Shown here: piece after piece, positions 24,881 to 53,973 of the stretch
Layout of the letters: each line of letters starts with the position of its first letter
Numbering within the stretch: position 1 is the first letter of the stretch
Source: Paulownia fortunei
Taxonomy: Eukaryota; Streptophyta; Magnoliopsida; Lamiales; Paulowniaceae
Length of the DNA stretch: 64,000 bases
Direction of reading: 5' to 3'
Assembly (NCBI GenBank): GCA_019321725.1
Contig: CM033108.1
Location: forward strand, 14,960,060-15,024,059
Translations under genes and position numbers: made by a program
Notes under the pieces: model-generated
Told to the model about the DNA's origin: nothing
What the model saw: only the letters and a program-made list of their open reading frames with translations
Database searches by the model: none

Positions 24881-24899
24881 ATTCAATTTACATTTTTGA

Positions 24900-25268: not shown

Positions 25269-25279
25269 ACATGTGAATG

Positions 25280-29006: not shown

Positions 29007-29047
29007 ATCAACTACGAGAACTTTAATACTTGATGGAATAGATTTTA

Positions 29048-29640
29048 CTATTGATGATAAAAGTTTTTCGAACCTTGGCTTCCAAATTTTTTTTTCTTGT
29101 ACCTGTAAAAATTTAGAGATAGTATTAGTGTATGCCTTTTTACAAATATTTCACTTTCGAAACAAGTCTCCAAAGAATCTAAAGAGTTAGTAGTAGTAAA
29201 GTATTCATGAACAAGTTCCTCAATTGAATCCACTTCATGTACTTCAACATTTTCTGCAGGTTGCATACAAACATTAAACACATTTAGTTCCAAAGTTATA
29301 TTTCCAAATGATAACTTCAAAATATCATTTCTACAATTGATCAAAGCATTTGAAGTTGCAAGAAAAGCACGAACCAAAATGATAGGAATTTGTGTATGTG
29401 TTTGTGCAAAAAGCTCTGTGTCCAAAAAAATGAAATCAACTGGAAAGTAAAACTTAACAATTTGTACCAACACATCTTCTACTATTCCCTTTGGAACTTT
29501 AATTGAATGGTCAGCTAGTTGGAGTACAGCAGAAGTTGTTTTAAATTCTCCCAAACCTAACTATTCATAAATTGAAAAAGGTAGAAGATTTACACTAGCA
29601 CCAAGATCAAGCAAAGCACGCTTTATTATAGTGTTTCCTA
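29048..29640 (-). pseudogene. Athila-type protease region
   Basis: The frame 29048-29554 contains LADHSIKVPKGIVEDVLVQI, equal to the conserved ADRSIK.PRGVVEDVLV block downstream of the protease active site, then FYFPVDFIFLDTE. Upstream near 29590-29610 the minus strand reads a LLDLGASVNLLPF-like box, with the D-x-G of the protease. A stop near 29557 lies between them. Confidence 0.75.
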
Positions 29641-30068
29641 TGTTACATGAAATGGTTGGACAACATGGATCTTTGTACTTAAGTGGAGTGAATTGTTGAA
29701 TGATTGAACTAACACTTTCAATTAAAAATGCCTTCTTTTGTACATGATATTTTCTTTTGATTGTTCACAGATCTTTTAAAAATTTGACGTAAGGTGGAAT
29801 TTGCTTGATTGCATCCAATAATAGAATATTAATCTTGACTTGTTTAAAAATTTCAAAAATTTCAGCATTTGAGTTCAATTTCTGAGTTGTTTGCAATCTT
29901 TGAGGAAAGAGTGCTGGAGGTAAATATTTATCTTTTTCATTATTTTCACACTTACCTTCTTCAAACTTACCTTCGACGTTAAGACTATTTCCATTTTTTA
30001 TTTCTAGAGGTAGATTAAAAACTTTCTCCTTAGGATGAATAGTCTTGTTAATAACTTTTCCATTCCGA
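29641..30068 (-). pseudogene. Athila-type gag, C-terminal part
   Basis: The frame 29765-30133 carries the end of gag: YLPPALFPQRLQTTQKLN, then FKQVKINILLLDAIKQIPPY and VKFLKDL, all standard for Athila gag-protease linkers. At about 30068 the reading passes without a stop into Copia pol sequence (MSPKTPEERERMARI side). The first 20-odd codons of this open frame are therefore Copia, not Athila: the frame is a chimera made by rearrangement. Confidence 0.8.
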
Positions 30069-30850
30069 ATACGAGCCATCCTCTCTCTCTTCAGGTGTCT
30101 TGGGAGACATAGCCTTAAAGAGTAAAATCTCATGACTCATAGGCAGGAATCCTTGCTTGTATTCCTCCATACTAAAACGTTTTAGCACTTTGTCTATGCA
30201 CATGGACTGGGATAGTCCAATCATCTTTCTTGATCTATCTCTATAGATCTTTATCCCTAGAATAAAAGATGCATCCCCAAGTCCTTCATGGAAAATTAAT
30301 TAAACATCCAAGTCTTCATTGACTGCAACATTCCTATATCATTCCCAATGAATAAGATGTCATCAACGTAGAGTACAACAAATGTAACTACACTCCCACT
30401 AACCTTCTTGTAGATACATGATTCATCCAGGTTCTTATGAAAATCAAAGGTTTTGATTGTTTCATCAAATCGGATGTTCCAACTCCTCGAAACTTGTTTG
30501 AGTCCATAAATAGACCTTTGGAGCTTGCAAACTTTTTGTTTGCTCCCACTGGATATAAAGACTTCTAGCTGTTTCATATATATCTATTCCTTAATGTTTC
30601 CAATAAGGAAAGCAATCTTCACATCCATTTATCATATCTCATAGTTATAATATGCAGATATAGCTAACAGTATCCGAATGGATTTAAGCATCGCTACTAA
30701 TGAAGAAGTTTTTTCATAATCAATTCCTTGCTTTTAAGTATAACCTTTTACAATTAAACCTAATTTATAGGTTGCTACCTCTCCATCTATTTCAACCTTA
30801 TGCTTGTAGACCTAATTGCAGCCAATGGGGACAATTATCTGTGGTAGGTT
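30068..30850 (-). pseudogene. Copia reverse transcriptase, element E
   Basis: Minus-strand pieces give MDVKIAFLIGN-like palm sequence, then the frame 30296-30577 with KVCKLQRSIYGLKQVSRSWN and the intact catalytic box LYVDDILFIGND, then LSQSMCIDKVLKRFSMEEYK and PMSHEILL. Stops occur near 30576 and 30299. The reading breaks off at MARI, where the Copia family continues with an ASAIGS motif. Confidence 0.85.
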
Positions 30851-30852
30851 CA

Positions 30853-31058
30853 TTAATGTTCATCAGATTGCATAGCTTCTTGCCATTTCTCCGAATTGAT
30901 GTTAGACGTCACCTCTCCATAGTTTCTTGGATCATTATCCAAGGGGAGTCCTTCTTCTTTGTTCTCTAACAAGAAGTTATACCTCTTAGGTACACTTGAG
31001 ACCCTTTCAGATCTTCGAAAAGGTTGTGCTTGAGAGGGCCCTATAATATAAATTTCAT
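30853..31058 (-). pseudogene. Copia integrase-RT linker, element E
   Basis: The frame 30853-31095 includes QPFRRSERVSSVPKRYNFLL and DPRNYGEVTSNINSEKWQEA, the usual stretch just upstream of RT. Its first part belongs to the inserted LTR at 31059. Confidence 0.75.
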
Positions 31059-31627
31059 TGTCTGCAAAAATTACAAACAAAAAAAAATAGTACAAATAAA
31101 ATTTTATTGAATTTAATAAAAATATATAGATACAAGCTCCATTGATCCTCCGATTCTTCTTTGCAAGAAATGTTGACTTTGTGAATTTGGTAACTTTTTG
31201 ATGGAATCGAACCTATGATCTCCTCCAAAGGTGACTTGATTTTCAATAATGTTAATTTGAGGGTTTAACAACTTAATCTCAAATTAAACGCCATGATTTG
31301 CTGAGCTTTGTGAAGAATGTCTTGCTTTTCACCTTGAACACCGTAGATCTCCTTGTATTTGATGGACTTGAGTTGAGAGATCTTTCTCCAACGCCTTTTT
31401 TGATTAGATCTCTTCTTCTTCTTCACTTGTGTTTAACTTCTTGGATATGACCTTTATTTATACTTGTAGAATGAGGGCTCTTGCCTTTTAATTTTATCAA
31501 TAAAATATTTTATTTAATTTTTGAAATCTAATGATAATTCCAAAAATAAATAAAAGTATAAAATTGATAAGTTAAAATTTATTACACATGTCAATACATA
31601 ATTGACTAGAAATTTTCCATGTCTACA
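31059..31627 (-). repeat. LTR of the inserted element
   Basis: Starts tgtagaca and ends gcagaca on the minus strand, with a purine tract directly upstream. No second copy is seen in the window, so the boundaries rest on termini and PPT only. Confidence 0.6.
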
Positions 31628-31699
31628 AATGCCCCCTCGAGACTTGTTCATGTGCATCCAGTGGGTGTGAAAAGTGAATAAGTCTCGAAATCTTTTGAA

Positions 31700-32075
31700 T
31701 TGATTTGAACTTGTAGATAGTTTATCCTCATATCAAGGAATTCTTGACTTGATTTGACTTTATAGATAGTTTATAGTTGTATCGAGGAGTCTTTATTTGA
31801 ATTTAAATTTGTAGATAGTTTATACTCATATTAAGGAGTCTCAATTTGAATTTAAAATTTCTTAGATAGTTTATACTCATATCAAGGAGTCTTCATTTGA
31901 ATTTGACTTCTAGATATTTTATACTCATGTCAATGAGTGTTTCATTTGATTTGACTTGTAGACCTTTTATACTCATATCAAGGAGTACTTCATTTGAATT
32001 TAAATTTGTAGATAATTTATAATCGTATCAAGGAGTCTTTATTTGAATTTGACTTATAGACCTTTTATACTCTTT
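31700..32075. repeat. 49-bp tandem repeat, ~7.5 units
   Basis: The tag tagata/tagacc...tttat recurs at 31713, 31763, 31812, 31863, 31911, 31959, 32009 and 32057 (spacing 48-51 bp). Each unit also has tactcatatcaaggagtctt and catttgaatttga. It lies directly upstream of the PPT of the inserted element. Confidence 0.9.
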
Positions 32076-32083
32076 ATACTTAA

Positions 32084-32440
32084 GCTAATTTGTTTCTCTA
32101 CTTCGATTCTGAATTCTTTAAACTTTTTAAATACTTCAGACTTGTACCTTAAAGGTATATATAACCATACATAGATAAGTCATCGATAAAGGTTAAGAAG
32201 TAGTTATAGTTCCCGATGGAACTAACATCTAATGGCCTACATACATCTGTATAGATCAAATCCAATAGATGTTTAGCTAGCTCTACTTGTCCAACAAATG
32301 GAGATGTGATCATCTTTTCTTTGAGGCATGATTCACATGTTGGCAGTTCTTGCTCATGCTTTAGATTAAGCAATTGTGCCTACTTGTTAATCATTTTCTC
32401 ATAAATATACCTTAATCTTGCATGCCATAAACTCATGAAA
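32084..32440 (-). pseudogene. Copia GAG-pre-integrase and integrase start, element E
   Basis: The frame 32149-32373 gives CESCLKEKMITSPFVGQ, then the integrase core start DLIYTDVCRPLDVSS (first catalytic Asp) and YFLTFIDDLSMYGYIYL. The text ends near 32084 with a KFKEFRIEVEKQ-like motif, after which the inserted element begins. The second catalytic Asp and the Glu are not in the window. Confidence 0.8.
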
Positions 32441-32589
32441 CTATGATTATCTATTTTTTTTTATTTTATTGAATTGAGAAAATGGGGTTATGGGGAGTAA
32501 CAGTATATGAACAATTCGTTAAAGAGTTCGAATAGATAAAATCAGAACAATTAAAAATGGAGCAATTTCTATTCTCAATGATAAATCTA

Positions 32590-32900
32590 AATTCTTCTCT
32601 ATCCAAAACTAGAATAGAGACAACGTTCTTAATAATATCTGGAACAAAAGACAATTGATTAAAACTATTACAGAACTATTCTCAAAAGTTAGATTAACAT
32701 TGTCTATAGCTAATGCAGCAAGATTAACATTGTCTATAGCTAATGCAGCAACTCTTGCTGTATTCAACATCTCTCCTTCATCCAGCTTCCTACTTCTTGT
32801 CATCATCTGCAAATCATTGTAGATATGTGAGGCACAATCGGTATCTAATACCCAAGAAGTATTGCTAACAAATAGGTTAACTTCAACAAAATATATATAT
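32590..32900 (-). pseudogene. Copia protease region, element E
   Basis: Near 32810-32870 the minus strand reads a WVLDTDCASHIYNDLQ-like block, where the D-[ST]-G active site has become D-T-D. Downstream, a 31-bp segment (agattaacattgtctatagctaatgcagca) is present twice in tandem at about 32690-32750, duplicating 10-11 codons. Confidence 0.65.
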
Positions 32901-32907
32901 GAACTCT

Positions 32908-33162
32908 TTAAGCTTGCAAGATACTCTTTGAAATTCTTCTTCTAGTACCCTGGTTTGCACAGTAATGACACTTTTCATTGGCTTGAGAAGAAACCTTATT
33001 GACACCGCCTTTAGCCTTCAGCTTGTTGGGCTTAGAGAAAACCTTTTCCTTTTCTCTTTCCTTTCTGTGGCATTTTAACCTTTGATCCGGAAGAGGATCT
33101 AACAAGCAAGATTGGCTTATGCTTTTTCATGGTGGACTCGGCCATATTTAACATGTTCACAT
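32908..33162 (-). pseudogene. Copia gag C-terminus with zinc knuckle, element E
   Basis: The minus strand shows a Lys-rich stretch (QKGKRKGKGF-type) and CHYCANQGT, the start of the CxxCxxxGHxxxxC knuckle, whose last part is frameshifted. It is followed to the right by AESTMKKHKPILLV and then the assembly gap. Confidence 0.75.
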
Positions 33163-33262
33163 NNNNNNNNNNNNNNNNNNNNNNNNNNNNNNNNNNNNNN
33201 NNNNNNNNNNNNNNNNNNNNNNNNNNNNNNNNNNNNNNNNNNNNNNNNNNNNNNNNNNNNNN
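33163..33262. other. Assembly gap, 100 N
   Basis: Exactly 100 undetermined bases, usually a placeholder of unknown size. It lies between Copia element E and the first satellite monomer, so the array may be longer than shown. Reading frames that cross it are meaningless. Confidence 0.99.
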
Positions 33263-35033
33263 TTCCACTTTTAAAATTAAATTAGACGCCTTAGTTGTTC
33301 TGAATAAAAACCATTTTTTACTATCTGAGGAGTTAAAATATGATCAGTGTTAAAATATTGCGTGCATATTATTTATTTTTTGATTTTTATCGTATTTTTA
33401 TTTATTTAGAACTTTGAAGTATTTTTTATTTTTGAGTTATTCTCCCAGTATAATTTAGTATGTACTTTTAAATCATGTTTAATAAAATAATAAAAATTAT
33501 ATCAATAATTAAATTGTTTAAATCTATTAATTTGCCTTTAAAATTAAAATAACAAAAGGATAGAGAGAATTGCATTTTTATTAGATTTTAGAATATTTGT
33601 ATATTATTTAGTTATTCTAAATAAAAACTATTTTATATTATCAAAGGAAGTAAAACATATATACTTTCAAAATATTTGTGGCATATTATTTATTTCTTTT
33701 TGTAATTGATTTCATTTTTCTAGGTTTTAAAATTTTTAAATATTTATATTTGGAGTATTGTGCTATTAAAATTTAGTATATACTTTTAAAGTGAATATTG
33801 TAGAATAAACAAAACCTTTAATTACACTTTCAAACACTGACATTATTTATTCGAAATAGAAACTGTTTAATACTATCATTTAAAATAAGTTTACTTTTGA
33901 AACGTCGAACACAAATTGTTTATTTATTTTAAATTTTTTAAATATTTCTAATTTTGAGTTATTGTGCTTGTAAGATTTAGTATGTGCTTTTAAACTAAAT
34001 TCAAAAAATTATAGAAAAACCTTTCAAAGCTGCACTTCTAAAATTAAAACATTTTAAAATACTTTTAGTTTTTAATAGATTTAATTAGTAATTTTCTTAA
34101 TTTATTCATTTTGTGTTGCTACAATTCCATCTATACTATTAAATTAAATGTCAAAAAATAGGGAAAAATGTTTAATTTTGTTATTAAGATTAAAATATAT
34201 ACTTTAGTTATTCTAAATAAAAAGTATTTAATAATATCTAAGGAATTGAATTATATTTTATTTATTTTTGTTTTAAATTTTTATTACAATTTATTAGATT
34301 TCAATTTTTTTAGATATTTATATTTCTAATTATTGTGCTAGTAAAATTCAGTATATACTATTACATTAAATTTTATAAGAAAATTAAAATACTATCTAAG
34401 GAATTAAAATGTATTTTCGTTTAAAGTATTTATTACATATTATTTGTTTTAAAATTTTAAATTTTATTACAATTTATTAGATTTTAAATTTTTTAAATCT
34501 TTATATTTCTTAGTTATTGTGCTAATAAAATTCAGTACATACTGTTACGTTAAATTTAGTAAAATAAAGAAAAATATTCAAATTAATAAATCTGTTAAAT
34601 TTATTAATTTGCCTCAAACTATAATAGTAAATATGAAGACAAAGTATTCCTGTCACTAATCCTCTCAAATTATTTGTATTGATATTAAAAAGTTACCTTA
34701 GTGCGCTAAAAATCTTTAGTAATTATACTTTCGAATTTAAAATATTTATTTATCGTAGATGAATATTGTACAGTTAATTATATATTTCAACCAAATACTG
34801 TTGAAGGGTATCAAAATATATTTCCTTTCAAAAATTCCTTACATAATGTAGAATTAAAATATATTTATTTTTAGAATATTTAATACACATTATTTATTTT
34901 TGTATTGAGTTTAAATAACAATTTTTTTTTTAGATTTGTACCTTCTCAAAAATTTATTTTTTTGAGTTCTTGTGCTACTAATATTTCGTAAATACCTTTA
35001 AATTAAATGTCATAAAATAAACAAAACCGTTAA

Positions 35034-36804
35034 TTCCACTTTTAAAATTAAATTAGACGCCTTAGTTGTTCTGAATAAAAACCATTTTTTACTATCTGAG
35101 GAGTTAAAATATGATCAGTGTTAAAATATTGCGTGCATATTATTTATTTTTTGATTTTTATCGTATTTTTATTTATTTAGAACTTTGAAGTATTTTTTAT
35201 TTTTGAGTTATTCTCCCAGTATAATTTAGTATGTACTTTTAAATCATGTTTAATAAAATAATAAAAATTATATCAATAATTAAATTATTTAAATCTATTA
35301 ATTTGCCTTTAAAATTAAAATAACAAAAGGATAGAGAGAATTGCATTTTTATTAGATTTTAGAATATTTGTATATTATTTAGTTATTCTAAATAAAAACT
35401 ATTTTATATTATCAAAGGAAGTAAAACATATATACTTTCAAAATATTTGTGGCATATTATTTATTTCTTTTTGTAATTGATTTCATTTTTCTAGGTTTTA
35501 AAATTTTTAAATATTTATATTTGGAGTATTGTGCTATTAAAATTTAGTATATACTTTTAAAGTGAATATTGTAGAATAAACAAAACCTTTAATTACACTT
35601 TCAAACACTGACATTATTTATTCGAAATAGAAACTGTTTAATACTATCATTTAAAATAAGTTTACTTTTGAAACGTCGAACACAAATTGTTTATTTATTT
35701 TAAATTTTTTAAATATTTCTAATTTTGAGTTATTGTGCTTGTAAGATTTAGTATGTGCTTTTAAACTAAATTCAAAAAATTATAGAAAAACCTTTCAAAG
35801 CTGCACTTCTAAAATTAAAACATTTTAAAATACTTTTAGTTTTTAATAGATTTAATTAGTAATTTTCTTAATTTATTCATTTTGTGTTGCTACAATTCCA
35901 TCTATACTATTAAATTAAATGTCAAAAAATAGGGAAAAATGTTTAATTTTGTTATTAAGATTAAAATATATACTTTAGTTATTCTAAATAAAAAGTATTT
36001 AATAATATCTAAGGAATTGAATTATATTTTATTTATTTTTGTTTTAAATTTTTATTACAATTTATTAGATTTCAATTTTTTTAGATATTTATATTTCTAA
36101 TTATTGTGCTAGTAAAATTCAGTATATACTATTACATTAAATTTTATAAGAAAATTAAAATACTATCTAAGGAATTAAAATGTATTTTCGTTTAAAGTAT
36201 TTATTACATATTATTTGTTTTAAAATTTTAAATTTTATTACAATTTATTAGATTTTAAATTTTTTAAATCTTTATATTTCTTAGTTATTGTGCTAATAAA
36301 ATTCAGTACATACTGTTACGTTAAATTTAGTAAAATAAAGAAAAATATTCAAATTAATAAATCTGTTAAATTTATTAATTTGCCTCAAACTATAATAGTA
36401 AATATGAAGACAAAGTATTCCTGTCACTAATCCTCTCAAATTATTTGTATTGATATTAAAAAGTTACCTTAGTGCGCTAAAAATCTTTAGTAATTATACT
36501 TTCGAATTTAAAATATTTATTTATCGTAGATGAATATTGTACAGTTAATTATATATTTCAACCAAATACTGTTGAAGGGTATCAAAATATATTTCCTTTC
36601 AAAAATTCCTTACATAATGTAGAATTAAAATATATTTATTTTTAGAATATTTAATACACATTATTTATTTTTGTATTGAGTTTAAATAACAATTTTTTTT
36701 TTAGATTTGTACCTTCTCAAAAATTTATTTTTTTGAGTTCTTGTGCTACTAATATTTCGTAAATACCTTTAAATTAAATGTCATAAAATAAACAAAACCG
36801 TTAA
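35034..36804. repeat. One satellite monomer with eight internal sub-repeats
   Basis: The loose motif attgtgct..taaaattyagtatatactttta recurs in variants near 35213, 35531, 35735, 35884, 36106, 36290, 36472 and 36743, spacings 149-318 bp. A second motif (ttattctaaataaaaactatttaatactatc..aggaa) and a third (catattatttattt) accompany it in several of them. So the 1771-bp unit is a fixed set of old, diverged ~220-bp units. Confidence 0.75.
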
Positions 36805-39800
36805 TTCCACTTTTAAAATTAAATTAGACGCCTTAGTTGTTCTGAATAAAAACCATTTTTTACTATCTGAGGAGTTAAAATATGATCAGTGTTAAAATAT
36901 TGCGTGCATATTATTTATTTTTTGATTTTTATCGTATTTTTATTTATTTAGAACTTTGAAGTATTTTTTATTTTTGAGTTATTCTCCCAGTATAATTTAG
37001 TATGTACTTTTAAATCATGTTTAATAAAATAATAAAAATTATATCAATAATTAAATTATTTAAATCTATTAATTTGCCTTTAAAATTAAAATAACAAAAG
37101 GATAGAGAGAATTGCATTTTTATTAGATTTTAGAATATTTGTATATTATTTAGTTATTCTAAATAAAAACTATTTTATATTATCAAAGGAAGTAAAACAT
37201 ATATACTTTCAAAATATTTGTGGCATATTATTTATTTCTTTTTGTAATTGATTTCATTTTTCTAGGTTTTAAAATTTTTAAATATTTATATTTGGAGTAT
37301 TGTGCTATTAAAATTTAGTATATACTTTTAAAGTGAATATTGTAGAATAAACAAAACCTTTAATTACACTTTCAAACACTGACATTATTTATTCGAAATA
37401 GAAACTGTTTAATACTATCATTTAAAATAAGTTTACTTTTGAAACGTCGAACACAAATTGTTTATTTATTTTAAATTTTTTAAATATTTCTAATTTTGAG
37501 TTATTGTGCTTGTAAGATTTAGTATGTGCTTTTAAACTAAATTCAAAAAATTATAGAAAAACCTTTCAAAGCTGCACTTCTAAAATTAAAACATTTTAAA
37601 ATACTTTTAGTTTTTAATAGATTTAATTAGTAATTTTCTTAATTTATTCATTTTGTGTTGCTACAATTCCATCTATACTATTAAATTAAATGTCAAAAAA
37701 TAGGGAAAAATGTTTAATTTTGTTATTAAGATTAAAATATATACTTTAGTTATTCTAAATAAAAAGTATTTAATAATATCTAAGGAATTGAATTATATTT
37801 TATTTATTTTTGTTTTAAATTTTTATTACAATTTATTAGATTTCAATTTTTTTAGATATTTATATTTCTAATTATTGTGCTAGTAAAATTCAGTATATAC
37901 TATTACATTAAATTTTATAAGAAAATTAAAATACTATCTAAGGAATTAAAATGTATTTTCGTTTAAAGTATTTATTACATATTATTTGTTTTAAAATTTT
38001 AAATTTTATTACAATTTATTAGATTTTAAATTTTTTAAATCTTTATATTTCTTAGTTATTGTGCTAATAAAATTCAGTACATACTGTTACGTTAAATTTA
38101 GTAAAATAAAGAAAAATATTCAAATTAATAAATCTGTTAAATTTATTAATTTGCCTCAAACTATAATAGTAAATATGAAGACAAAGTATTCCTGTCACTA
38201 ATCCTCTCAAATTATTTGTATTGATATTAAAAAGTTACCTTAGTGCGCTAAAAATCTTTAGTAATTATACTTTCGAATTTAAAATATTTATTTATCGTAG
38301 ATGAATATTGTACAGTTAATTATATATTTCAACCAAATACTGTTGAAGGGTATCAAAATATATTTCCTTTCAAAAAATTCCTTACATAATGTAGAATTAA
38401 AATATATTTATTTTTAGAATATTTAATACACATTATTTATTTTTGTATTGAGTTTAAATAACAATTTTTTTTTTAGATTTGTACCTTCTCAAAAATTTAT
38501 TTTTTTGAGTTCTTGTGCTACTAATATTTCGTAAATACCTTTAAATTAAATGTCATAAAATAAACAAAACCGTTAATTCCACTTTTAAAATTAAATTAGA
38601 CGCCTTAGTTGTTCTGAATAAAAACCATTTTTTACTATCTGAGGAGTTAAAATATGATCAGTGTTAAAATATTGCGTGCATATTATTTATTTTTTGATTT
38701 TTATCGTATTTTTATTTATTTAGAACTTTGAAGTATTTTTTATTTTTGAGTTATTCTCCCAGTATAATTTAGTATGTACTTTTAAATCATGTTTAATAAA
38801 ATAATAAAAATTATATCAATAATTAAATTATTTAAATCTATTAATTTGCCTTTAAAATTAAAATAACAAAAGGATAGAGAGAATTGCATTTTTATTAGAT
38901 TTTAGAATATTTGTATATTATTTAGTTATTCTAAATAAAAACTATTTTATATTATCAAAGGAAGTAAAACATATATACTTTCAAAATATTTGTGGCATAT
39001 TATTTATTTCTTTTTGTAATTGATTTCATTTTTCTAGGTTTTAAAATTTTTAAATATTTATATTTGGAGTATTGTGCTATTAAAATTTAGTATATACTTT
39101 TAAAGTGAATATTGTAGAATAAACAAAGCCTTTAATTACACTTTCAAACACTGACATTATTTATTCGAAATAGAAACTGTTTAATACTATCATTTAAAAT
39201 AAGTTTACTTTTGAAACGTCGAACACAAATTGTTTATTTATTTTAAATTTTTTAAATATTTCTAATTTTGAGTTATTGTGCTTGTAAGATTTAGTATGTG
39301 CTTTTAAACTAAATTCAAAAAATTATAGAAAAACCTTTCAAAGCTGCACTTCTAAAATTAAAACATTTTAAAATACTTTTAGTTTTTAATAGATTTAATT
39401 AGTAATTTTCTTAATTTATTCATTTTGTGTTGCTACAATTCCATCTATACTATTAAATTAAATGTCAAAAAATAGGGAAAAATGTTTAATTTTGTTATTA
39501 AGATTAAAATATATACTTTAGTTATTCTAAATAAAAAGTATTTAATAATATCTAAGGAATTGAATTATATTTTATTTATTTTTGTTTTAAATTTTTATTA
39601 CAATTTATTAGATTTCAATTTTTTTAGATATTTATATTTCTAATTATTGTGCTAGTAAAATTCAGTATATACTATTACATTAAATTTTATAAGAAAATTA
39701 AAATACTATCTAAGGAATTAAAATGTATTTTCGTTTAAAGTATTTATTACATATTATTTGTTTTAAAATTTTAAATTTTATTACAATTTATTAGATTTTA

Positions 39801-42116
39801 AATTTTTTAAATCTTTATATTTCTTAGTTATTGTGCTAATAAAATTCAGTACATACTGTTACGTTAAATTTAGTAAAATAAAGAAAAATATTCAAATTAA
39901 TAAATCTGTTAAATTTATTAATTTGCCTCAAACTATAATAGTAAATATGAAGACAAAGTATTCCTGTCACTAATCCTCTCAAATTATTTGTATTGATATT
40001 AAAAAGTTACCTTAGTGCGCTAAAAATCTTTAGTAATTATACTTTCGAATTTAAAATATTTATTTATCATAGATGAATATTGTACAGTTAATTATATATT
40101 TCAACCAAATACTGTTGAAGGGTATCAAAATATATTTCCTTTCAGAAAATTCCTTACATAATGTAGAATTAAAATATATTTATTTTTAGAATATTTAATA
40201 CACATTATTTATTTTTGTATTGAGTTTAAATAACATTTTTTTTTTAGATTTGTACCTTCTCAAAAATTTATTTTTTTGAGTTCTTGTGCTACTAATATTT
40301 CGTAAATACCTTTAAATTAAATGTCATAAAATAAACAAAACCGTTAATTCCACTTTTAAAATTAAATTAGACGCCTTAGTTGTTCTGAATAAAAACCATT
40401 TTTTACTATCTGAGGAGTTAAAATATGATCAGTGTTAAAATATTGCGTGCATATTATTTATTTTTTGATTTTTATCGTATTTTTATTTATTTAGAACTTT
40501 GAAGTATTTTTTATTTTTGAGTTATTCTCCCAGTATAATTTAGTATGTACTTTTAAATCATGTTTAATAAAATAATAAAAATTATATCAATAATTAAATT
40601 ATTTAAATCTATTAATTTGCCTTTAAAATTAAAATAACAAAAGGATAGAGAGAATTGCATTTTTATTAGATTTTAGAATATTTGTATATTATTTAGTTAT
40701 TCTAAATAAAAACTATTTTATATTATCAAAGGAAGTAAAACATATATACTTTCAAAATATTTGTGGCATATTATTTATTTCTTTTTGTAATTGATTTCAT
40801 TTTTCTAGGTTTTAAAATTTTTAAATATTTATATTTGGAGTATTGTGCTATTAAAATTTAGTATATACTTTTAAAGTGAATATTGTAGAATAAACAAAAC
40901 CTTTAATTACACTTTCAAACACTGACATTATTTATTCGAAATAGAAACTGTTTAATACTATCATTTAAAATAAGTTTACTTTTGAAACGTCGAACACAAA
41001 TTGTTTATTTATTTTAAATTTTTTAAATATTTCTAATTTTGAGTTATTGTGCTTGTAAGATTTAGTATGTGCTTTTAAACTAAATTCAAAAAATTATAGA
41101 AAAACCTTTCAAAGCTGCACTTCTAAAATTAAAACATTTTAAAATACTTTTAGTTTTTAATAGATTTAATTAGTAATTTTCTTAATTTATTCATTTTGTG
41201 TTGCTACAATTCCATCTATACTATTAAATTAAATGTCAAAAAATAGGGAAAAATGTTTAATTTTGTTATTAAGATTAAAATATATACTTTAGTTATTCTA
41301 AATAAAAAGTATTTAATAATATCTAAGGAATTGAATTATATTTTATTTATTTTTGTTTTAAATTTTTATTACAATTTATTAGATTTCAATTTTTTAGATA
41401 TTTATATTTCTAATTATTGTGCTAGTAAAATTCAGTATATACTATTACATTAAATTTTATAAGAAAATTAAAATACTATCTAAGGAATTAAAATGTATTT
41501 TCGTTTAAAGTATTTATTACATATTATTTGTTTTAAAATTTTAAATTTTATTACAATTTATTAGATTTTAAATTTTTTAAATCTTTATATTTCTTAGTTA
41601 TTGTGCTAATAAAATTCAGTACATACTGTTACGTTAAATTTAGTAAAATAAAGAAAAATATTCAAATTAATAAATCTGTTAAATTTATTAATTTGCCTCA
41701 AACTATAATAGTAAATATGAAGACAAAGTATTCCTGTCACTAATCCTCTCAAATTATTTGTATTGATATTAAAAAGTTACCTTAGTGCGCTAAAAATCTT
41801 TAGTAATTATACTTTCGAATTTAAAATATTTATTTATCATAGATGAATATTGTACAGTTAATTATATATTTCAACCAAATACTGTTGAAGGGTATCAAAA
41901 TATATTTCCTTTCAGAAAATTCCTTACATAATGTAGAATTAAAATATATTTATTTTTAGAATATTTAATACACATTATTTATTTTTGTATTGAGTTTAAA
42001 TAACAATTTTTTTTTAGATTTGTACCTTCTCAAAAATTTATTTTTTGAGTTCTTGTGCTACTAATATTTCGTAAATACCTTTAAATTAAATGTCATAAAA
42101 TAAACAAAACCGTTAA

Positions 42117-43690
42117 TTCCACTTTTAAAATTAAATTAGACGCCTTAGTTGTTCTGAATAAAAACCATTTTTTACTATCTGAGGAGTTAAAATATGATCA
42201 GTGTTAAAATATTGCGTACATATTATTTATTTTTTATTTTTATCGTATTTTTATTTATTTAGAACTTTGAAGTATTTTTTATTTTTGAGTTATTCTCCCA
42301 GTATAATTTAGTATGTACTTTTAAATCATGTTTAATAAAATAATAAAAAATTATATCAATAATTAAATTATTTAAATCTATTAATTTGCCTTTAAAATTA
42401 AAATAACAAAAGGATAAAGAGAGTTGCATTTTTATTAGATTTTAGAATTTTAGAATATTTGTATATTATTTAGTTATTCTAAATAAAAACTATTTAATAT
42501 TATCAAAGGAAGTAAAACATATATACTTTCAAAATATTTATGGCATATTATTTATTTCTTTTTTTTAATTAATTTTATTTTTTTAGGTTTCAAAAATTTT
42601 AAATATTTATATTTGGAGTATTGTGCTATTAAAATTTAGTATATAATTTTAAATTGAATATCGTAGAATAAACAAAACCTTTAATTCACTTTCAAACACT
42701 AACGTTATTTATTCAAAATAGAAACTATTTAATACTATCATTTAAAATAAGTTTACTTTTGAAACGTCGAACGTAAATTGTTTATTTATTTTAAATTTTT
42801 TAAATATTTCTAATTTTGAGTTATTGTGCTTGTAAGATTTAGTATGTACTTTTAAACTAAACTCAATAAATTATAGAAAAACGTTTAAAAGTTCACTTTT
42901 AAAATTAAAACATTTTAAAATATTTTTAGTTTTTAATAGGTTTAATTTGTAATTTTCTTAATTTATTCATTTTGTGTTGCTACAATTCCATCTATACTAT
43001 TAAATTAAATGTCAAAAAATAGGGAAAAATGTTTAATTTTGTTATTAAGATTAAAATATATACTTTAGTTATTCTAAATAAAAACTATTTAATACTATCT
43101 AAGGAATTGAATTATATTTTATTTATTTTTGTTTTAATTTTTTTTTACAATTTATTAGATTTTAATTTTTTTAGATATTTATATTTCTAATTATTGTGCT
43201 AGTAAAATTGAGTATATACTATTACATTAAATTTTATAAGAAAATTAAAATACTATCTAAGGAATTAAAATGTATTTTCGTTTAAAGTATTTATTAATAT
43301 TATTTATTTTAAAAATTTAAATTTTATTACAATTTATTAGATTTTAAATTTTTTAAATATTTATATTTCTTAGTTATTGTGCTAGTAAAATTCAGTATAT
43401 ACTATTACATTAAATTTAGTAAAATAAAGAAAAATATTTAAATTAAAAAATTTGTTAAATTTATTAATTTGCCTCAAACTATAATAGTAAATATGAAGAC
43501 AAAGTATTCCTTTTACTAATTCTCTTAAATTATAAGTTATGTTTCAACTTTGTATTGATATTAAAAATTTACCTTAGAGCGCTAAAAATCTTTAGTAATT
43601 ATACTTTCGAATTTAAAATATTTATTTATTATAGATTAATATTGTAAAGTTAATTGTATATTTCAATCAAATACTATCGAAGGGTATGAC
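42117..43690. repeat. Diverged edge monomer of the satellite array
   Basis: Aligns along its length with monomers 1-5 but has many substitutions and small indels, for example a duplicated ttttagaat near 42443-42460 and an insertion of about 17 bases near 43532-43550. It ends at about 43690 in a Copia LTR. Confidence 0.9.
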
Positions 43691-45522
43691 AATATTCTAC
43701 TCTAGAGTATGTGGAGTTCAATTCTTAATTTAACTAGTGAATAGAAGAATTGAACCATGATCAAAAAGTGAAATCTTTTGACGAAAGAAAAGAACTAAGA
43801 AAAAGGGAGAATGAGGCGTTTTTCTTCTTCAAAAGAGCTGGCTAATTTCTCTTTTGTTTTCTACAAGAATCGGTCACTTTGGGGGGAGTCCTTATATTGT
43901 ACTACTCCAATCCTAGTCCTACTATGTTTCTACTTGTTCCTTTCTTTAGTTGATTAATTTTTCTACCAAATTTTAAGACAAGTTTAATGTTTATAATTAA
44001 ACTTTCTAATGGGCCTCCTATGAGTCCATTAGTTGGACTTTGGACTTTAATTAATTTATTTAAGTCCAGTTAATTAATCTTTATCTATTAAATAAGTTCA
44101 ACTTAATTAATTGACCCAATCAATTAATTAATTGGTTGTACTTGGACTTTCTAATCATATTAGAATCTATTAAATAATTCTATTATTTAATATGCTCAAT
44201 TTAATTAATTGATCATATCAATTAATTAACTTGATAATATGTAGGGCTCTCCTAATCATATTAGGTCCAATTAAATAACCATATTATCTAATCGGTAAAT
44301 TAATTAAATTCCTTAAATTAATCTATACCCTAATTAATTAATTGATCATATCAATTACTTAACTAGCTCCACATGGACTCCTTGATCTTATTAGGTCTAA
44401 TTAAATTATTTAATTAGATAAATTGATTTAACTTCTTAATGATTCTTGAGTCCCAAATTAATTAATCTTTATTAATTAATTTGATCCAACCCTTGAATGT
44501 ATTCTAGTTAGAAGTATACTCTTTCCAACTTAGTGTGTGACCCCTCAGGTTCACTTTAAGCTAGCTGTGTCTCATAACTCTTGTGACTTAGTTAAATAAT
44601 TTAATTATTTCAATTAATTAATCTAATCAATTAATCTTTTTAGAATTAACTCATTAATCAGAAGTCATGGGAAGTACCTAACAGTGCATCATAACTCATA
44701 GTTTTAGGTGAATGTACGAACCTATTCCAATTACGAATATCATGCAAGTACGGTACTTCCATCATCTAATCACTTGATTGAACTTAGGGAGCATAGATTA
44801 TGAGTCGAAACCCCCAATAGCTTAATCATTATATTTCCATTCCTAGTCACTGATGATGAACAATTAGAAAACCCCATGTCTATGTTCCTTCCAACCTTGG
44901 CCAAGAATTTAGAGTCAAGTACAGTGGAACACATAAGAGATTCACCTATCCATATAGATAGGTGATGAATCCTTTATTGATTACTCATTAACCTCCATAC
45001 ATAAAGATGTTATACCCAACATAAACCCTTTGTGATTATCATGCAATCAGAAAATATATCAAGGTGTAACATATCATGCATAAGGTTACCATAGTACCTC
45101 AAGTTCGAGGACTACTTCTTGTACTATTGTAATGAGGAAATTCTCATTCCATAATAACATTTCCAATTAGAAATTTTCATGTGTGGTTGTTCAAAGTACT
45201 TGTTCCCAAATAAGCACCTACATACATACACTAATGTCACCACACCAATGCCCATGGAATGAGGCATCCTCCTTTCGAGCTTGCATTATATGCGCAAGTC
45301 TTAACGGAATCCATAATGTCCCATCTCATTGATCCTTGACTTGAAATGTTTTAAGACCACAGCCTTAGAGGCATATTCCATAATTATCGTTATATACATG
45401 ACCACGTCCCATAGCTATGTGTGATCTAAGAACTTCATCTAATTCTTAAGATGAATTTAAGATGAAGATTCATAAGTATATAAGGACGACCAGATCAGTT
45501 GGCTCACCGGACACTACTATAA
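43691..45522 (-). repeat. Copia LTR B, truncated by the satellite
   Basis: On the minus strand it begins ttatagtagtgtccggtgagc and aligns with LTR A and LTR C, for example the agaattgaactccacatact block near 43705. The last ~430 bp that LTR A has before its PBS are missing; satellite sequence starts there instead. Rich in ttaatta runs. Confidence 0.8.
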
Positions 45523-47560
45523 TAATCTCCTACTTGTCCTAGAGATAATTTTCCTCGTATTAAGGCCCATCTTCCCCAAGATGTCCTTTAAATACTTATC
45601 TCAGGATTAAATCAGTGAGTCTGCTATGTTTTCTACTAAGAAAAATCTTTCCACACTGATGTTGCCTCTACCAGTATTTTTAGAATCATGGCATCATTAA
45701 TTTATTTCTGCTTGTATCTTTTGGTAAGATCTTGGCTTATTTGCTTGTTCAATAGCCCCCCCATACTCTGATACATCAATAATAGTTGGACCTACATCCA
45801 ACGCTTGGATAAAGTTTCCATCCAAATAGTTCTTTTTCGTAGCATCGCATGCTCTGATGTATTAGCCACGGTAGTGGAATCCATGGTTGTTACAAGCTTG
45901 GAACTCTTTTTAGCTAACCGTCCTACCATTTAGGATGAAAGCAATCTAGACATAGACTTCAAGTCATTTATTTGAGACAAAAAACTAGATGAAGCATCTT
46001 AGTTTCAGTTCTCCATAACTGTACTCCAAGAAGAGATCCTTAGTACTTTGTAAGTATTAATGATCATCTTTACGGCTTCTAATGTTTTTCTCATCAAATT
46101 GACTGATATTTGTTCGTGACATTTAGAGAATTTTTTATTTCACATGTTGTACATAGATTTATATATTTTATACTTTCTATTAAGGATGTATAAAGTGTGT
46201 GAGTTATTATTTCTCTTTTTTTCAAAAGTCCTTGGGATGTAGACTTCGAAAGAGAAATCCCATGACTTAAAAAGAAATAATCTCTCATATGATTCTTTTA
46301 TGCTAAACCCTTTTAGCATCTAATTTATGTATTTGGATTTAGGATAGTCTAAGCATCCTTTCAGATCTATCTCCATAGATCTCAATTCCCAATCCCTAGG
46401 ATGCTTCTCCTAAATCTCTCTTAGAGAACTTTGTAAATGACAAGTCTCAATTGACTGCAATATTGCTACATCACTCCTATGAGTAGAATGTCATCTCCAT
46501 TAAATATATCAATTATTACCATGCTCCTACTAATTGTCTTGTACATGCTTGGTCATTCGCATTCCTAAGAAAACCAAAAACTCGCAAACCTTTTGCTTGC
46601 TTCTATTTAATATGATGACCTCAGGTCGCTTATCTTATATCCTATTCTCAATACCATTATTGAGAAAGGCGGTCTTCACATTCCTTGGCCATATCTAGTA
46701 GTCATAATACGTAGATATAGCCAGTACTATTGGAATGGATATTAAGGTCACCTCAACAGTCAACACCTTAATTTTAAGCATAACTTTTTTCTATCAATCA
46801 TGCCTTTATAGGTCACCACCTCCTGTGTTTAATTTTATACGTCCTTTTGGATCAAATCCAAATGAGTGTTCTACTTTATTTGTCCCCCAAATGGTGATTT
46901 GATGATCTTTTTCTTGAGATAAAATTACAAGTAGGCACCTTATGTAAGTCTAAGAGATCAAGCAAATGCACCATTTTATGAACTCTTTCTTTAGATGTAT
47001 GACCTAATCTAACTTACTACAAGTATGCACTATTTTTATAATCTAATTCTAATATTACTTTATTGATTATGTAGCATGAAATTTTGGGATTGTATAGTTC
47101 ATTTGTCAATGTAGCAAATACAAATAATTAATACTATCTTAAATCCATCAAAAGTTAAGTGGATCATTTATATAGCTAATAAAGCAACTCTTGCTTTACT
47201 ATCAAGCTTAAGGATTGTCCTTTGTCTTAGTCTCCATTTTCTTGTCATCCTCTGCAATCTCTTGTAGAGGTAGGATTATTCTGGTATCCAATACCCAAGA
47301 AAAATTTATCAACCTTAATGATTGATATCAACAAAGTGTAAACTTAAATTAGAACCCCTTCTATTCAATACTTGCACTTCGCTTTCTCTTTCTATACCCT
47401 AAATATTTGCAATGGTGAGAAACATCTATCCTTTTAGATAGATTGAGCTAGGAAGTTTATTTATTTGTCTAGATTATCCTAAGTGGAATTTCTAGTGACG
47501 ACTATTATCCTATGTGAGGCAGAAAAGTTAGCATTCATTCTATTAATATCCATTTATGGT
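45523..47560 (-). pseudogene. Copia element B pol remnant, minus strand
   Basis: Next to the LTR is a PPT (about 45524-45540, minus aggacaagtaggagatta). Further right, minus-strand similarity to element E is seen for the RNase H end (45540-45620), RT (46300-46830, with a KQKVCEF-like piece near 46590 and the YVDD box decayed to NGDD near 46490), then directly the GAG-pre-integrase region (46880-47000) and protease (47270-47320). The integrase core is missing, so there is an internal deletion. Stops are everywhere. Confidence 0.7.
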
Positions 47561-48116
47561 TTGATCTTTAATTGTAAATGTCTCTCACTATTTTATTCAA
47601 ATCCCATCACTATCTAGATGGAAATTTAGGAAATCCAATTTCTTAGTGGGCTTGAGACACCCAATTTTATGAGCCTATATAACAAAACTAAAAGATAGCT
47701 AACAACATTAGCAATTGCATCCCCACGCAACCCTCAAACTATTTTGCCTCACCTTCTCATGTAGCTCAATTTTATGAGTCCATATGGTACTAAGTATCAA
47801 GCATTATCCATCAAACATCTATATAGATGGAGCATCTAAACGCCCAACAACTCATGGGCAATGATAAAGATGAGTTCACCCTATGAGTATCTCAATGATT
47901 AGTAGTGGTCATAACTTGCCAATACTTAGCACTTCCGATGACTCGTGGCCAACAGACTAAATATAGTAGCGTATCAACATACCACTACTTGTGATAGAAG
48001 ACATAGATGATTGGGTCCCACCCAATATTACCCATTTATGCTTGATATTGAACAAATTAAAATTTCAACTTGAAATATTTTTAAGTGAGAATCATACTAC
48101 ATTTATTATGCAAAGT
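47561..48116. other. Unassigned stretch between Copia B and Athila LTR
   Basis: No frame or repeat is recognised. It may be the gag/leader of Copia element B, but I see no sequence support for that. Confidence 0.4.
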
Positions 48117-49712
48117 TGATAAGTACATATTTTGACATATTTTTGTATCAAATCCTTTATACTTTTATTACTTTATTCTTGTTAATATTATTATTTTATT
48201 AATGTTTTGTGTAGGGAATAAATGAAAGCATGTTTTCAAACTTGTGCAGTGTTTGTAATTTGATCATAACTTCATGATCAAAAGTCCTATGGACCTAAAG
48301 ATTATTTCATTTGAAAGCGAAAAGATAGAGGTACAACTTTTCTATTGGAAACTTAGCCTAATTCAGTCTTGATTATAGCAGAAAATTCATCCAAGTAGTT
48401 GCACAAAATGGATCACCAAAATTCGGATCAGAGTTCAACCCAGTATTGACTTATTTTACCAATTGGGTTATATCTCTTGGGCCTAAATTTATTTTTAGCT
48501 GAAATTCAGATATGTTATACACAAGAGGTAAATAAACAAGTTTGCTAAGACAAGATAGTGTGAAAATGTGTCAAAATGGTAAAAAGATCGGCTGCAAGTT
48601 ACTGCTACTGTTAAAGGATGGCTCTTGGATATGACTCGATAATTTAACCATATCTCCTTCATCCGTCCTTCAAATTTGACAAAAGATATATGAAAATATA
48701 TCAATGCCAAAAGATCTATAATTTTGATTCTTTATATATATTCAAAATCTAGTTGTATCTGACCGAACAATGCAATTCAATTTAGTGGGTGAGAACTTGG
48801 TGTAACAACTTACCAACTCTTGGCAACTAGCATACCAGTTGATTAACCCCTCCATTATTTGTTTGGCCTCTAGCTTACTCTAAGTACTATAAATAGATCA
48901 TGTATTAAGCTTGTAAGAGAAGGGGGTAGAGGGTTTCTTTAGGCTAAGTTATCTAGTTTGTATGTTTTCTAGTATTGTAAGTTTTCTAGTAGTAATAGAA
49001 ATGTATTATCTATTTTCTCTTATATTTTTAGTCTTTGCTACTTTTATTATGTCTTTTAAATTTCGCAGAGAAAAAAAGATGAATCTCTTGATGGAGGAAG
49101 ATGAATGGTTATAAGGGTAGAAAATATTGTTGTATTATTATTTTTATTTTTAATCTAAACCTTACTTGTTTTGTAGTGATTCTTGATTTATGTATCTCCA
49201 ATGGTACAACAAATACTTGGGTTCATTTAGCTTATTGTACAGTTTTACCCCACCGACTGCTAATGTGAAATCTTGATTTGTTGTTGATGAAGGTGTGCAT
49301 AAATGCTTGATTCCATAAATAAGTGTTGGCATTAAAAGATAATTTGCAATATTAAGATAATATCATGATTACCTTATTGCATGAGTTATTTGATAATATC
49401 TTTTCATTGGAACCTTCATTATATATGGATTTCAATTATGGAAATTAATAGAGGTAAAAAGAATAAATAACCATTTCTCTATCCAAAACTTAAGAGTGGA
49501 TCCCTAATCCTCAATACTTTTATTACTTCGGTTTTTCTTTAGTTACAACATATATTAATTGTTCATATATTTTGATTCACATAAATTCCATCTTTTTAGA
49601 AATATAAACTTGAATTTTTCAAACAACTTCCATATGGATCGACCTCATACTCACAAGATATTTATTATTTAATACAACCTGCACTTGGGTTTGCAATCTT
49701 AAAGTTGTAGTA
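48117..49712 (+). repeat. Athila-type 5' LTR, full length
   Basis: About 1.6 kb, from tgataagtacatattttgac to just before the PBS. The first 1.27 kb align with 21495-22774, and the first ~0.4 kb with the inverted copy at 22775-23179. A TATA-like actataaatag lies at about 48887-48897. Confidence 0.85.
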
Positions 49713-49718
49713 AGTTTT

Positions 49719-49736
49719 TGGCCCCATTGCCGGAGA
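49719..49736 (+). other. Primer binding site, Athila-type
   Basis: tggccccattgccggaga, two changes from tggcgccgttgccgggga, the Asp-tRNA-type site typical of Athila elements. Confidence 0.85.
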
Positions 49737-49912
49737 AGGCAAGGTAAGTATTCAGGTTTGTTAATATTTTTCCTTTGTAAATATAGTTTATTTATTTTCT
49801 TTATGGATGTATGGTTATATGATGTCGTAGTCATAATTCTCGATATTTAGTTCGAAATAATTCTGAAACTTTATTTGAAAATTTATTTGAATCATCTCCA
49901 CACACTTTCACC

Positions 49913-51193
49913 ATGGCTGGAAATGAAAGTATCAATGATGAAAATGAGAATCAACATGTGCGGACCATGCGTTATTACTTGCAACCTCCTCGAAATTCTT
50001 TTCCTTCTTGTTTCATTTTTCCTCTGAATACAAATAACTTTCGATTCAAGTCAAGTATAATCCCTTTACTTTCTAATTTCCATGATTTAGACTCTGAAAG
50101 CCCTTACATGCATTTAAAAAAATTTAATGAAGTATGTGCCACTTTTGATGATCAAACTTGTATAAATGAGATTGTTAAGCTCAAATTATTTTCTTTTCTT
50201 TAAAAGACAAAGCAAAAAATTGGCTTAATTTTTTAAAACCTAGGTCAATTGGCACTTGGCAAGAAATGCAAGCTAAATTTTTGAAAAAAATTCTTTTCAA
50301 CTCATAAAACTAATGCTTTGAAAAGATAAATTCAAAATTTTTCTCAAAATTCGAATGAAGCTTCTTTCAATGTTGGGAAATATTTAAAGATTTGTTAAAT
50401 TTATGCCCACATCATGGTTTTGAAAAATGACGCTTAATTAGTTTCTTTTATGAAGGATTAACTCTGAAACAAAACAATTAATTGAAATAATATGTAATGG
50501 TGAGTTTCTTGATAAAGAGCATGATGAAGCCCTAGAATATCTAGATCATTTGACAGAAAACTCTCAATCATGGCATAGTGTTAATTCTTCTGAAGGTTCT
50601 ATTAGATCTAATCTTGCTAATAGTAATAAAGGAAAAAATTACCTTAGCTAAGAAGATGATCTAAATGCTACGCTTGCTAGTTTAACAAGAAAAGTTGAAG
50701 CTATGGAACTTAAAAAAGTAAAGGAAATCAAATCTGTGCAAGAGAAATAAGTTTGTAGTAATTGTGAACTTTTAGGGCACTCCAACAATGAATGTCCAAA
50801 CATTCCAGTACAAGCAAAGTTTATGAACAAATTCAAAAAACCTTTCCATTTTTCATATTTTAAAACTTACAATCCACAATGGAGAAATCATCCTAATTTC
50901 AGTTGGCGAGATGATAACCATGCCCAACTATTGCATTCACAAAAACCACCAAACTTTCATTCTTATCCAACTCTACATACAAAATCCCTTGAGGAGACTT
51001 TGCAAGCATTTATGCATGAACAAACAAACATCAATGATCAGACTTCACAAGCTATCAATGAGATCAGAATCACATTTTCAATACTGATAGCTTCTTTACG
51101 TACTCATGAAAAAGACAAATTTTCTACTCAATCTCAACCTAATCCTTCCACTCAGTGTCATGTTTCTTCTTCAAGTGAAAGTGCAGTCAAGGA
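49913..51193 (+). pseudogene. Athila-type gag, N-terminal part
   Basis: The ATG at 49913 starts MAGNESINDENENQHVRTMR, followed by LQPPRNSFPSCFIFP and SPYMHLKKFNEVCATF, the usual Athila gag start. After a frameshift near 50203 further parts are readable (SIGTWQEMQAKFLKK-like, then EHDEALEYLDHLTENSQSWH) and a knuckle CSNCELLGHSNNECP near 50757-50800. The frame 50823-51305 continues with FMHEQTNINDQTSQAINEIR. At about 51193 it changes without a stop into Copia RNase H sequence, the mirror of the junction at 30068. Confidence 0.85.
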
Positions 51194-51870
51194 GGCTTCC
51201 GCAATAGGGAGCATAATATATGCAATGTTGTGTACAAGGCCTGATATAGTACAAGCTCTAAGCGTCACGAGCAGATATCAGTCCAATCTAGGGGAAGAAT
51301 ACTAGAAAGCCATTAAGATGATCCTCAAGTACTTAAGAAGGACTGAGGATATCTTTATGATATACGGCAATGGAGAACTAAAATTGGAGGTATATACAAA
51401 CTCTAGTTTTTAGTTCGATGTAGACGACTCAAAGTCCATGTCTAAATATATATTTACACTGAATGGTAGTGTGGTCAGTTGGAAGAGTTTCAAGAAAGAG
51501 ACGACTGTAGACTCTACCACTAAAACTAAATATATTACTGCATCAGATGCAATAGAATAAGTTGTTTGGATAAGAAACTTCATTTAAGGGTTGGGTGTAG
51601 TTCCATCCATTGTTGATCCAGTTATGATTTACTGTGATAACAATGAAGCCATTGCACAAGTAAAGGATCCAAGATCTTATCAAAGATCCAAGCACATAAT
51701 GAGATAATATCACTTGATCAGAGAGATCATTAGTAGAGACAACATCATTATGAATCAAGTTACCTCAGCAGAAAATGTAGCAGACCCGCTTACTAAGCCC
51801 TTATTAGAGAAGGTATTCGACGGACATCTCAAGAAAATGGGCCTTAAATACATGGGTAATTAGAGCTAGG
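51194..51870 (+). pseudogene. Copia RNase H, element C
   Basis: Starts with ASAIGSIIYAMLCTRPDIVQ and ALSVTSRYQSN, then in the same or shifted frames a YTNSSF-like start of RNase H, SWKSFKKETTVDSTTKTKYI and a DNNEAIAQVKDPRSYQRSKH block, ending with ENVADPLTKPLLEKVFDGHL. Several single stops (near 51303, 51410, 51558, 51704) break it. It would remove RNA during reverse transcription. Confidence 0.85.
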
Positions 51871-51883
51871 GCAAGTGGGAGAT
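51871..51883 (+). other. Polypurine tract, Copia element C
   Basis: gcaagtgggagat directly before the LTR, the standard Copia form. Confidence 0.85.
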
Positions 51884-53973
51884 TGTTAGAGTAGGATGCC
51901 TAACTCCCCAATTAGATTGAGTGTAATATACTTTTTTTTTTTGTAAAGACAATCTTATTGGAAATCATATTAATAAAATATATTTTCTTTATTTTATATC
52001 ATGTATATTTTATTTCTGTATATTAGATAAAATTCTTAGATCAAATTTAGCTACAGGACATGGTCGTGGATATGATGGTGATCATGGAACGTGCCTCTAA
52101 GGCTTTGGTCTTCGAGTTAAGAGTTTTTTAAGATGGGACATCAAATAGCTTAGTAAAACTCGCACATATGATGTATGCTTGTGAGATGAGGATGCCACAT
52201 TTAATTGACGTTAGCAAAGAGATGCAAGTACAAGTATATGGGTGCTTGTTAGGAAACAAGTACATCGAATATAGCTTGCAAGAAATTCTTAGCTAGAAGC
52301 TTTGCCTATCGAAATAAGAATTTTTATATTGCGATAATACACGACTAGTCCTCGAACTTGAGGCATGATGATAGCCTTGTGTGCATTCTGCAGTACTTTG
52401 ATATATCTTCTGATTACTTGACAATTACAAAAGGGATATGTTAGGTGTTGCACTGGTGTACATGGAGGTTTATCAATAGTCAACATAGAATTCGATATTT
52501 ATCTTTTTAAACAAGAGAATCTCCTGTATTTTTATAGTTTGTGATTCAAAAACCTTGGCCAAGGCAGGATGAATCGTGATTTATCAGGAATCATTGGAAT
52601 TTGAAATGAGATCACAGTTATTAAGTCATTTAGGGTTTTGACTTATAATCCATGTCCTAAATTCAATCGGGAGATTAGCTTTCGAAAGGATCGTACGTGT
52701 ATGGTACTCACAACTGAAATAGGTTTACTCACTATTTCACTTAAGACTAGTTTGTAATGATTACTTGTTTGGTCTTTTCATGGATATCGAGGTTTTTGAA
52801 ATTAAGGAGTTAATTCTAATGGATTAATTAATTAGAATAATTATTATTCATAAGTTGCAAATATTATAAGCCCACTACTTGTTTAGTAGTGAATTTAAGA
52901 GGGTCACACATCTTTATGGAAAGTAACATTTTTAATTTTGGGATTTATCCAATAGTTGAAAATTAATTAATTAATATTGATTAATTAATTAATTAAGAAT
53001 TTTATTTAATTTAATGTTTAAATTGAATTATTCAATTAAGTAATTATATTATTTAATTAGACCTAATTTGATTAGAAAGCTTAATTGGAGTAAATTATAA
53101 TTAATCAATTGGATTGATTAGTTTGAGATTAAATCAAATGGATTGATTTGTGGATTTTTAAGTCTAAACCCAAAAATTAATTTGGATCACTTTTGAAATC
53201 CACTAGAATATGAACAAAATAAATTAAATAAATATGATTTATTTAATTAATATATTTATAAATAAATAAATAAAGTGATCGATTTTTAAAGGATAAAAAT
53301 TGGCCACTAGAATTTATTTTATAAATAAATATATTTTTGGTATATATTTGATATATATCCATCCATATATTATTTGAAGAGTTCAAATTAATATCAAGAA
53401 TGTATATAGACAATTTTGATGACTAATATAGTCCCAAATAAGTCCACATATGTTAGAGAGAGAAAAGATGAAAGTTATTGGAAGATTTAGAATTTTTCCA
53501 AAATCAAACTTTGATTTAATTCAAAATTGATAAATTTTTCAAGAGTTGGAGGAGGAACAAATTTTCAACCCCTATTTATACGGAGGACCGAAAATTAGCA
53601 TATTAATTAGCAAAAATATTATTTTGTTCAGTCTTCTATTTTTCTATCCAAGAAAAGAAAAGAAAAGGTGTTTTCTTGAAATCTTAATTTTCTTGCTCTT
53701 TAAAAAAAAACTAGTTTCTTGATATTCTCTTTATATATAACGTTCAAGAACTTAAACAATTAATCTTTATTATTTTTTAAAGTTTATTCTTGATCTATCA
53801 ATTAGGTCAAAAAAGCAAAATTTACTCTAAATCCTGATTAGTAAATGATTAAAAAGATAGCGAATCATTATAATTGGTGTTTTTTTTCATATTGTGAATC
53901 TGATAGAGGCACTTAAATCTCTGCGAGTTCTGAGAGTTTTGATAAGGAAATAATTGTTATATGTCCTACAACA
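51884..53973 (+). repeat. Copia LTR C, full length, ~2.09 kb
   Basis: From tgttagagtagg to cctacaaca. Shares blocks with LTR A and LTR B (for example gatcatggaacgtgcctctaa near 52080 and the ggccaaggcaggatg region near 52558). An AT-rich middle contains many ttaatta runs, and a poly-T tract occurs near 51929. Confidence 0.8.

Follow-up and report, generated by a model that had tools for sequence, protein, structure and literature searches.

What rearrangement leaves two retrotransposons each broken in two, with half of one joined to half of the other at two separate places and in opposite orientation? The question is raised by a stretch of Paulownia fortunei scaffold C4 (C4:14960060-15024059, 64,000 nucleotides, hereafter the window), from an assembly of 509.1 Mb in 1247 contigs, in which two long terminal repeat (LTR) retrotransposons, one a Copia element and the other of the Athila type, have both been split. 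The original prediction for this stretch proposed an inversion of 30068-51193. The history that we favor, with a probability of roughly 85%, is an inversion of 51195-86630 through one Athila-type and one Copia element, in an assembly where a 57-kb contig reaching into the window is a misplaced haplotig. Coordinates follow window numbering, with negative values and values above 64000 lying outside the window in the 150 kb fetched around it. The lineage name Athila is the label of the original prediction and was assigned by no analysis.

Reciprocal junctions between two broken elements

The left junction, as carried by the 57-kb contig, lies at 30068/30069, where on the minus strand Copia reverse transcriptase (RT; 30069 upward) meets Athila-type gag (30068 downward), with 1 bp ambiguous. 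At the right junction, 51194/51195 on the plus strand, Athila-type gag extends to 51194 and the 3' part of Copia begins at 51195; 3 bp are ambiguous here, 51195-51197 being compatible with both parent elements in a base-level comparison with relatives. Chimeric junctions had been predicted close to these points (about 30068 on the minus strand and 51193 on the plus strand), and their reciprocal character can be read directly from the assembly. The claim that they lie in contiguous sequence also holds, in that both are in N-free sequence, the window's N being confined to 33163-33262. Each has a second copy outside the window: the left junction recurs at 86630/86631 on the next contig (401 of 401 bases identical) and the right one near -14415 on the 57-kb contig (301 of 301). 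Genome searches with the two junctions, in which 40 matches each were scored of 3734 and 3988 first-look candidates, placed each chimeric junction at two sites, both on C4, and the other 38 scored matches per search covered one side only, at 89-91% and 91-93% identity.

The four parts that meet at these junctions make up two recognizable elements. The 5' part of Copia (30069-33162, minus strand) runs into the contig end, and its counterpart on the next contig continues to a 5' LTR at about 91731-93976; a Pfam RVT_2 match at 30299-30583 (E = 8.2e-21) identifies a Ty1/copia RT. The 3' part (51195-51887, plus strand) contains the end of RT and the RNase H region and is followed by the 3' LTR (51888-54118, plus strand), whose last few bases are lost here but retained in the 57-kb contig copy. 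For the Athila-type element, the 3' part (22772-30068, minus strand) comprises the rest of gag, a protease-like region, and an RT with an RVT_1 match at 28002-28415 (E = 1e-15), as in Ty3/gypsy elements, and ends in a 3' LTR cut short at 22772. The truncated LTR (22772-23184) matches 48112-48530, within the region of the element's 5' LTR (48113-49413, plus strand), and the 5' part of the broken gag occupies 49823-51194 on the plus strand. Pfam returned no match for 8 of the 10 pieces scanned from both elements, among them the two tried from the 5' part of gag, and what we take to be gag and protease is named from motifs, without a Pfam match. The open reading frame that crosses the right junction has the P. 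fortunei protein P0001 as its best protein match among the matches listed (120 of 233).

If each element was whole before being cut, its two halves should be neighbors in related copies, as the original prediction held, and this is the case in both families. Twelve gag loci were fetched, two of them being this locus and the other 10 drawn from the 38 nonself matches among 40 scored (2143 candidates). In all 10 relatives the gag halves stand side by side, separated by 20 bp in nine and 19 bp in one, and the longest matches give 90.6-93.2% identity on the 5' side and 91.2-93.9% on the 3' side. Two same-scaffold pairs among them, L042/L043 on C20 and L045/L046 on C14, lie 31 and 77 kb apart and have the same or nearly the same identities; they look like near-duplicates, so that perhaps eight copies are independent, and they are possibly further local duplications or haplotigs.

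For Copia, 15 of the 16 loci fetched match both halves (L030 is without the left half, and L026, one of the 15, keeps it only partly), with longest matches of 78.7-85.0% and 85.1-88.2% identity for the two halves. Base-level reading covered 11 of the 15, namely the loci with alignments extending to, or almost to, the breakpoint from either side, and the halves are 7 bp apart in 10 and 6 bp apart in one. They are likewise exactly 7 bp apart in the ten loci common to both junction-search lists, three of which (L006, L034, and L035) also belong to the base-level set. Two P. fortunei proteins, P0005 and P0013, one per element, are contiguous across the respective breakpoints. The comparisons gave no sign that the halves overlap or derive from different subfamilies, findings that had been named in advance as grounds for rejection; they match the same relatives at similar identity. 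The adjacency of the halves in relatives of both elements, with the losses counted directly from them, makes an inversion with small end losses and 1 to 3 bp of microhomology very likely.

Extent and mechanism of the proposed inversion

Which segment was inverted depends on how the contigs are laid out. The 57-kb contig extends from -23977 to 33162 (1-33162 in the window) and is bounded on both sides by 100-N gaps (-24077 to -23978 and 33163-33262), the second being the scaffold gap to the next contig, which starts at 33263. Its containment is directly visible: -23977 to -9115 aligns to 41626-56495 of the next contig at 98.8% identity and -48 to 33162 aligns to 56491-89726 at 99.2%, so the next contig contains all of it except a 9-kb insertion. 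One part of this overlap appears as a direct repeat at the window ends (1-7437 versus 56541-64000, 98.3% identical). In each contig the right junction comes first and the left junction follows. They are 35,436 bp apart on the next contig, at 51195-86630, without N, and 44.5 kb apart on the 57-kb contig, also without N, the extra length being accounted for by the 9-kb insertion. To the left of 51195 stand the Athila-type 5' LTR and gag start, to the right of 86630 stand the Copia 5' half and 5' LTR, and the 3' parts of both elements lie between. Reversing 51195-86630 would rejoin both elements.

We propose that an Athila-type element on the plus strand and a Copia element on the minus strand inserted about 35 kb apart and that two double-strand breaks, the first within the former's gag and the second near the RT end of the latter, would have freed the intervening piece, which would have been rejoined in reverse with the loss of about 20 bp (gag) and 7 bp (Copia). 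The reversed piece would be 51195-86630 (C4:15011254-15046689, 35.4 kb without N), of which 51195-64000 falls in the window, and the junction at 30068 is a second copy of that at 86630. Microhomology of 3 bp at the right seam and 1 bp at the left would fit non-homologous or microhomology-mediated end joining. Recombination between inverted repeats was considered as a cause and set aside, because the 2-kb breakpoint neighborhoods share no long homology, the best match between them being 12 bp. The simplest explanation is that two breaks were mended by end joining, the break-and-rejoin step itself being inferred.

Because both elements are cut, the inversion would be younger than both insertions. 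With a plant substitution rate of 1.3e-8 per site per year, the Copia element would be several million years old, provided that its LTRs, about 15.5% apart, are one pair.

A retained haplotig or a second genomic copy

Substitutions between the 57-kb contig and the next are patchily distributed. They number 117 in the 14,839 bases of the first alignment, which also has 18 short indels, and 187 in the 33,180 of the second, which has 26. Of 33 bins, mostly of 1.5 kb, 25 have none, one has a single substitution, and seven differ by 1.2-4.8%. The divergent bins cluster in a first patch from about -13.5 to 2.9 kb and a second from about 18 to 21 kb; the latter (17952-20951) differs by 3.1-3.4% and has zero-substitution stretches on either side. 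The first holds the insertion, a 9-kb LTR element at -9115 to -48 (C4:14950944-14960011) with 2.8-kb LTRs and a 5-bp duplication, whose site is empty in the other contig and which is likely a heterozygous insertion. Its LTRs are 2.38% apart, compared with 3.8-4.8% in the bins alongside, which is what one would predict if it inserted after the two alleles had split.

At its satellite end, the 57-kb contig shares 99.7% identity with 41626-43695 and no more than 95.4% with the other full-length array alignments. The contigs flanking it have a perfect 101-bp end overlap, which we examined as possible proof that they adjoin directly and rejected as likely a chance match: perfect identity is also seen in 10-17% of comparable satellite windows, and the last 101 bases are identical in all five array stretches compared. 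The report on the first P. fortunei draft gives a size of 511.6 Mb, an N50 of 852.4 kb, and a heterozygosity of 2.03% (PMC10647314), and retained haplotigs in heterozygous genomes are treated as a known problem in the purge_dups paper (PMC7203741). From the containment, the patchy differences of 1-5%, and the 9-kb insertion, the 57-kb contig is best read as a retained haplotig. Most likely, judging from these alignments, it represents an alternative-haplotype version of the locus that was placed in a satellite gap beside its own allele.

The status of the contained contig as an allele and not a true tandem copy is nonetheless a matter of inference, and an unlikely competitor is that about 48 kb were truly duplicated in tandem together with the inversion, making the 57-kb contig a second genomic copy. 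It disputes only the haplotig part of the history: the inversion would be earlier than the duplication, the segment would still be the piece from right to left junction, and 30068-51193 would not be restored. The copies are placed adjacent and in the same orientation, and the long stretches without substitution are what a recent duplication would leave. Yet scaffold gaps sit at either end of the copy, the next contig contains it, no sequence covers the join between the two copies, and zero-difference bins interspersed with patches of 1-5% and a 9-kb insertion with LTRs 2.4% apart are unlike the product of one recent duplication. In a variant, a satellite-edge block with the already inverted segment would have been tandemly duplicated, and gene conversion would then have homogenized the copies in part, so that stretches without differences alternate with divergent patches; we consider it slightly less plausible again.

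Contrary evidence and further alternatives

Several observations weigh against an inversion of this segment through one Copia and one Athila-type element. No uninverted copy of the locus was present among the 40 scored matches of each junction search. Both junctions fall in stretches without substitution between the two contigs, so the two copies of each may share reads and are perhaps not independent observations. The LTRs do not single out one pair for either element, and we discarded their comparison as proof that two halves belong to the same element. For the Athila-type element, the 5' and 3' LTRs share 89.5% identity, while a third copy is 90.2 and 90.0% identical to them. Between the Copia 5' and 3' LTRs identity is 84.3-84.5% (a nearby third copy reaches 82.1-82.6%). 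In a search with the first 1013 bases of the 3' LTR, 38 other copies reached 85-86%, and the 40 scored matches of 8215 candidates did not include the putative 5' LTR. Copia insertions duplicate 5 bp of target site; four of the five bases match at this element, which would occur by chance in about 2.5% of cases.

The possible sharing of reads, with the identity of both copies of each junction, would fit junctions that are chimeric joins made in assembly, with no inversion in the plant. We regard this as very improbable: it would take a pair of independent chimeras, each breaking an element at a matching place, with only about 20 and 7 bp unaccounted for, and there is no long shared repeat at the breakpoints to mislead an assembler.

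The inverted segment as originally drawn, 30068-51193 with the satellite array and the gap inside it, has still less to recommend it. Its reversal also rejoins both pairs on paper, because the junctions repeat, and the idea of an inversion that rejoins both elements with few bases lost is probably right; the extent was wrong. This interval includes 100 N and spans two contigs, crossing a scaffold join that has no sequence, from the 57-kb contig to the one that it nearly duplicates in part, whereas the next contig alone carries both junctions without N. Beyond the equivalent of 33162, moreover, the Copia 5' part runs to its 5' LTR and not into satellite. Since the junction at 30068 is on a contig that duplicates the following one, the original prediction paired junctions of different copies, and the order within each contig, right junction and then left, puts both the satellite array and the gap outside 51195-86630. 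That the halves come from different insertions cut at matching points by chance is scarcely credible, even though the LTR comparisons favor no same-element pair over other family members, given that both elements together show complementarity, to within 20 bp in one and 7 bp in the other, and given the similar identity of both halves to the same relatives.

Other repeats at the locus

The satellite array that lies outside the inverted segment occupies 33263-43695 with a period of about 1771 bp and a G+C content of 17-19% over most of its length, and satellite is also found to the left of the 57-kb contig. Within the 5' half of Copia, a 49-bp tandem repeat is present in 7.1 copies at 31703-32052. 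Two Athila-type 3' ends face each other at 19927-24715 as an 88.5% inverted repeat, and the minus-strand one of the pair has its 3' LTR truncated at the boundary with the other LTR (about 22772-22788). Another Copia element at 44-47 kb was rejected as a partner at only about 66-68% identity. An Athila-type copy near 151-161 kb was set aside as a spanning control; its internal match ends at the equivalent of 29913, beside an LTR, and the needed part is missing.

Significance and comparison with known systems

Even within a single assembly, an inversion can be argued for strongly when two repeats are split into reciprocal halves. To tell which segment was turned around, one has to consult the arrangement of the contigs, a point of both caution and value for method: here the probable retained haplotig would have led to the wrong segment and the wrong length and would have tied the inversion to the satellite falsely. 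About 57 kb of this chromosome-scale scaffold is, in addition, probably a false duplication. Among the titles listed on inversion breakpoints with retrotransposons and on Athila with inversions, none names this locus, and a search on satellites or centromeres in Paulownia gave only a paper on another family.

The two elements resemble Ty1/copia and Ty3/gypsy (Athila-type) LTR retrotransposons in their RVT_2 and RVT_1 domains and their LTRs, and differ from intact members in being decayed and split by the inversion. The 57-kb contig resembles retained haplotigs as the purge_dups paper (PMC7203741) treats them, being contained, N-bounded, patchily divergent in an allelic manner, and distinguished by a likely heterozygous insertion. 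The event itself would be an ordinary, old, end-joining inversion in repeat DNA. It is like the small plant inversions whose end-joining breakpoints fall in transposable elements, in having reciprocal breakpoints, small deletions, 1 to 3 bp of microhomology, and no extended homology within 1 kb on either side. Nothing essential sets it apart from them, except that here both breakpoints cut LTR elements and so give a direct read-out of the rearrangement.

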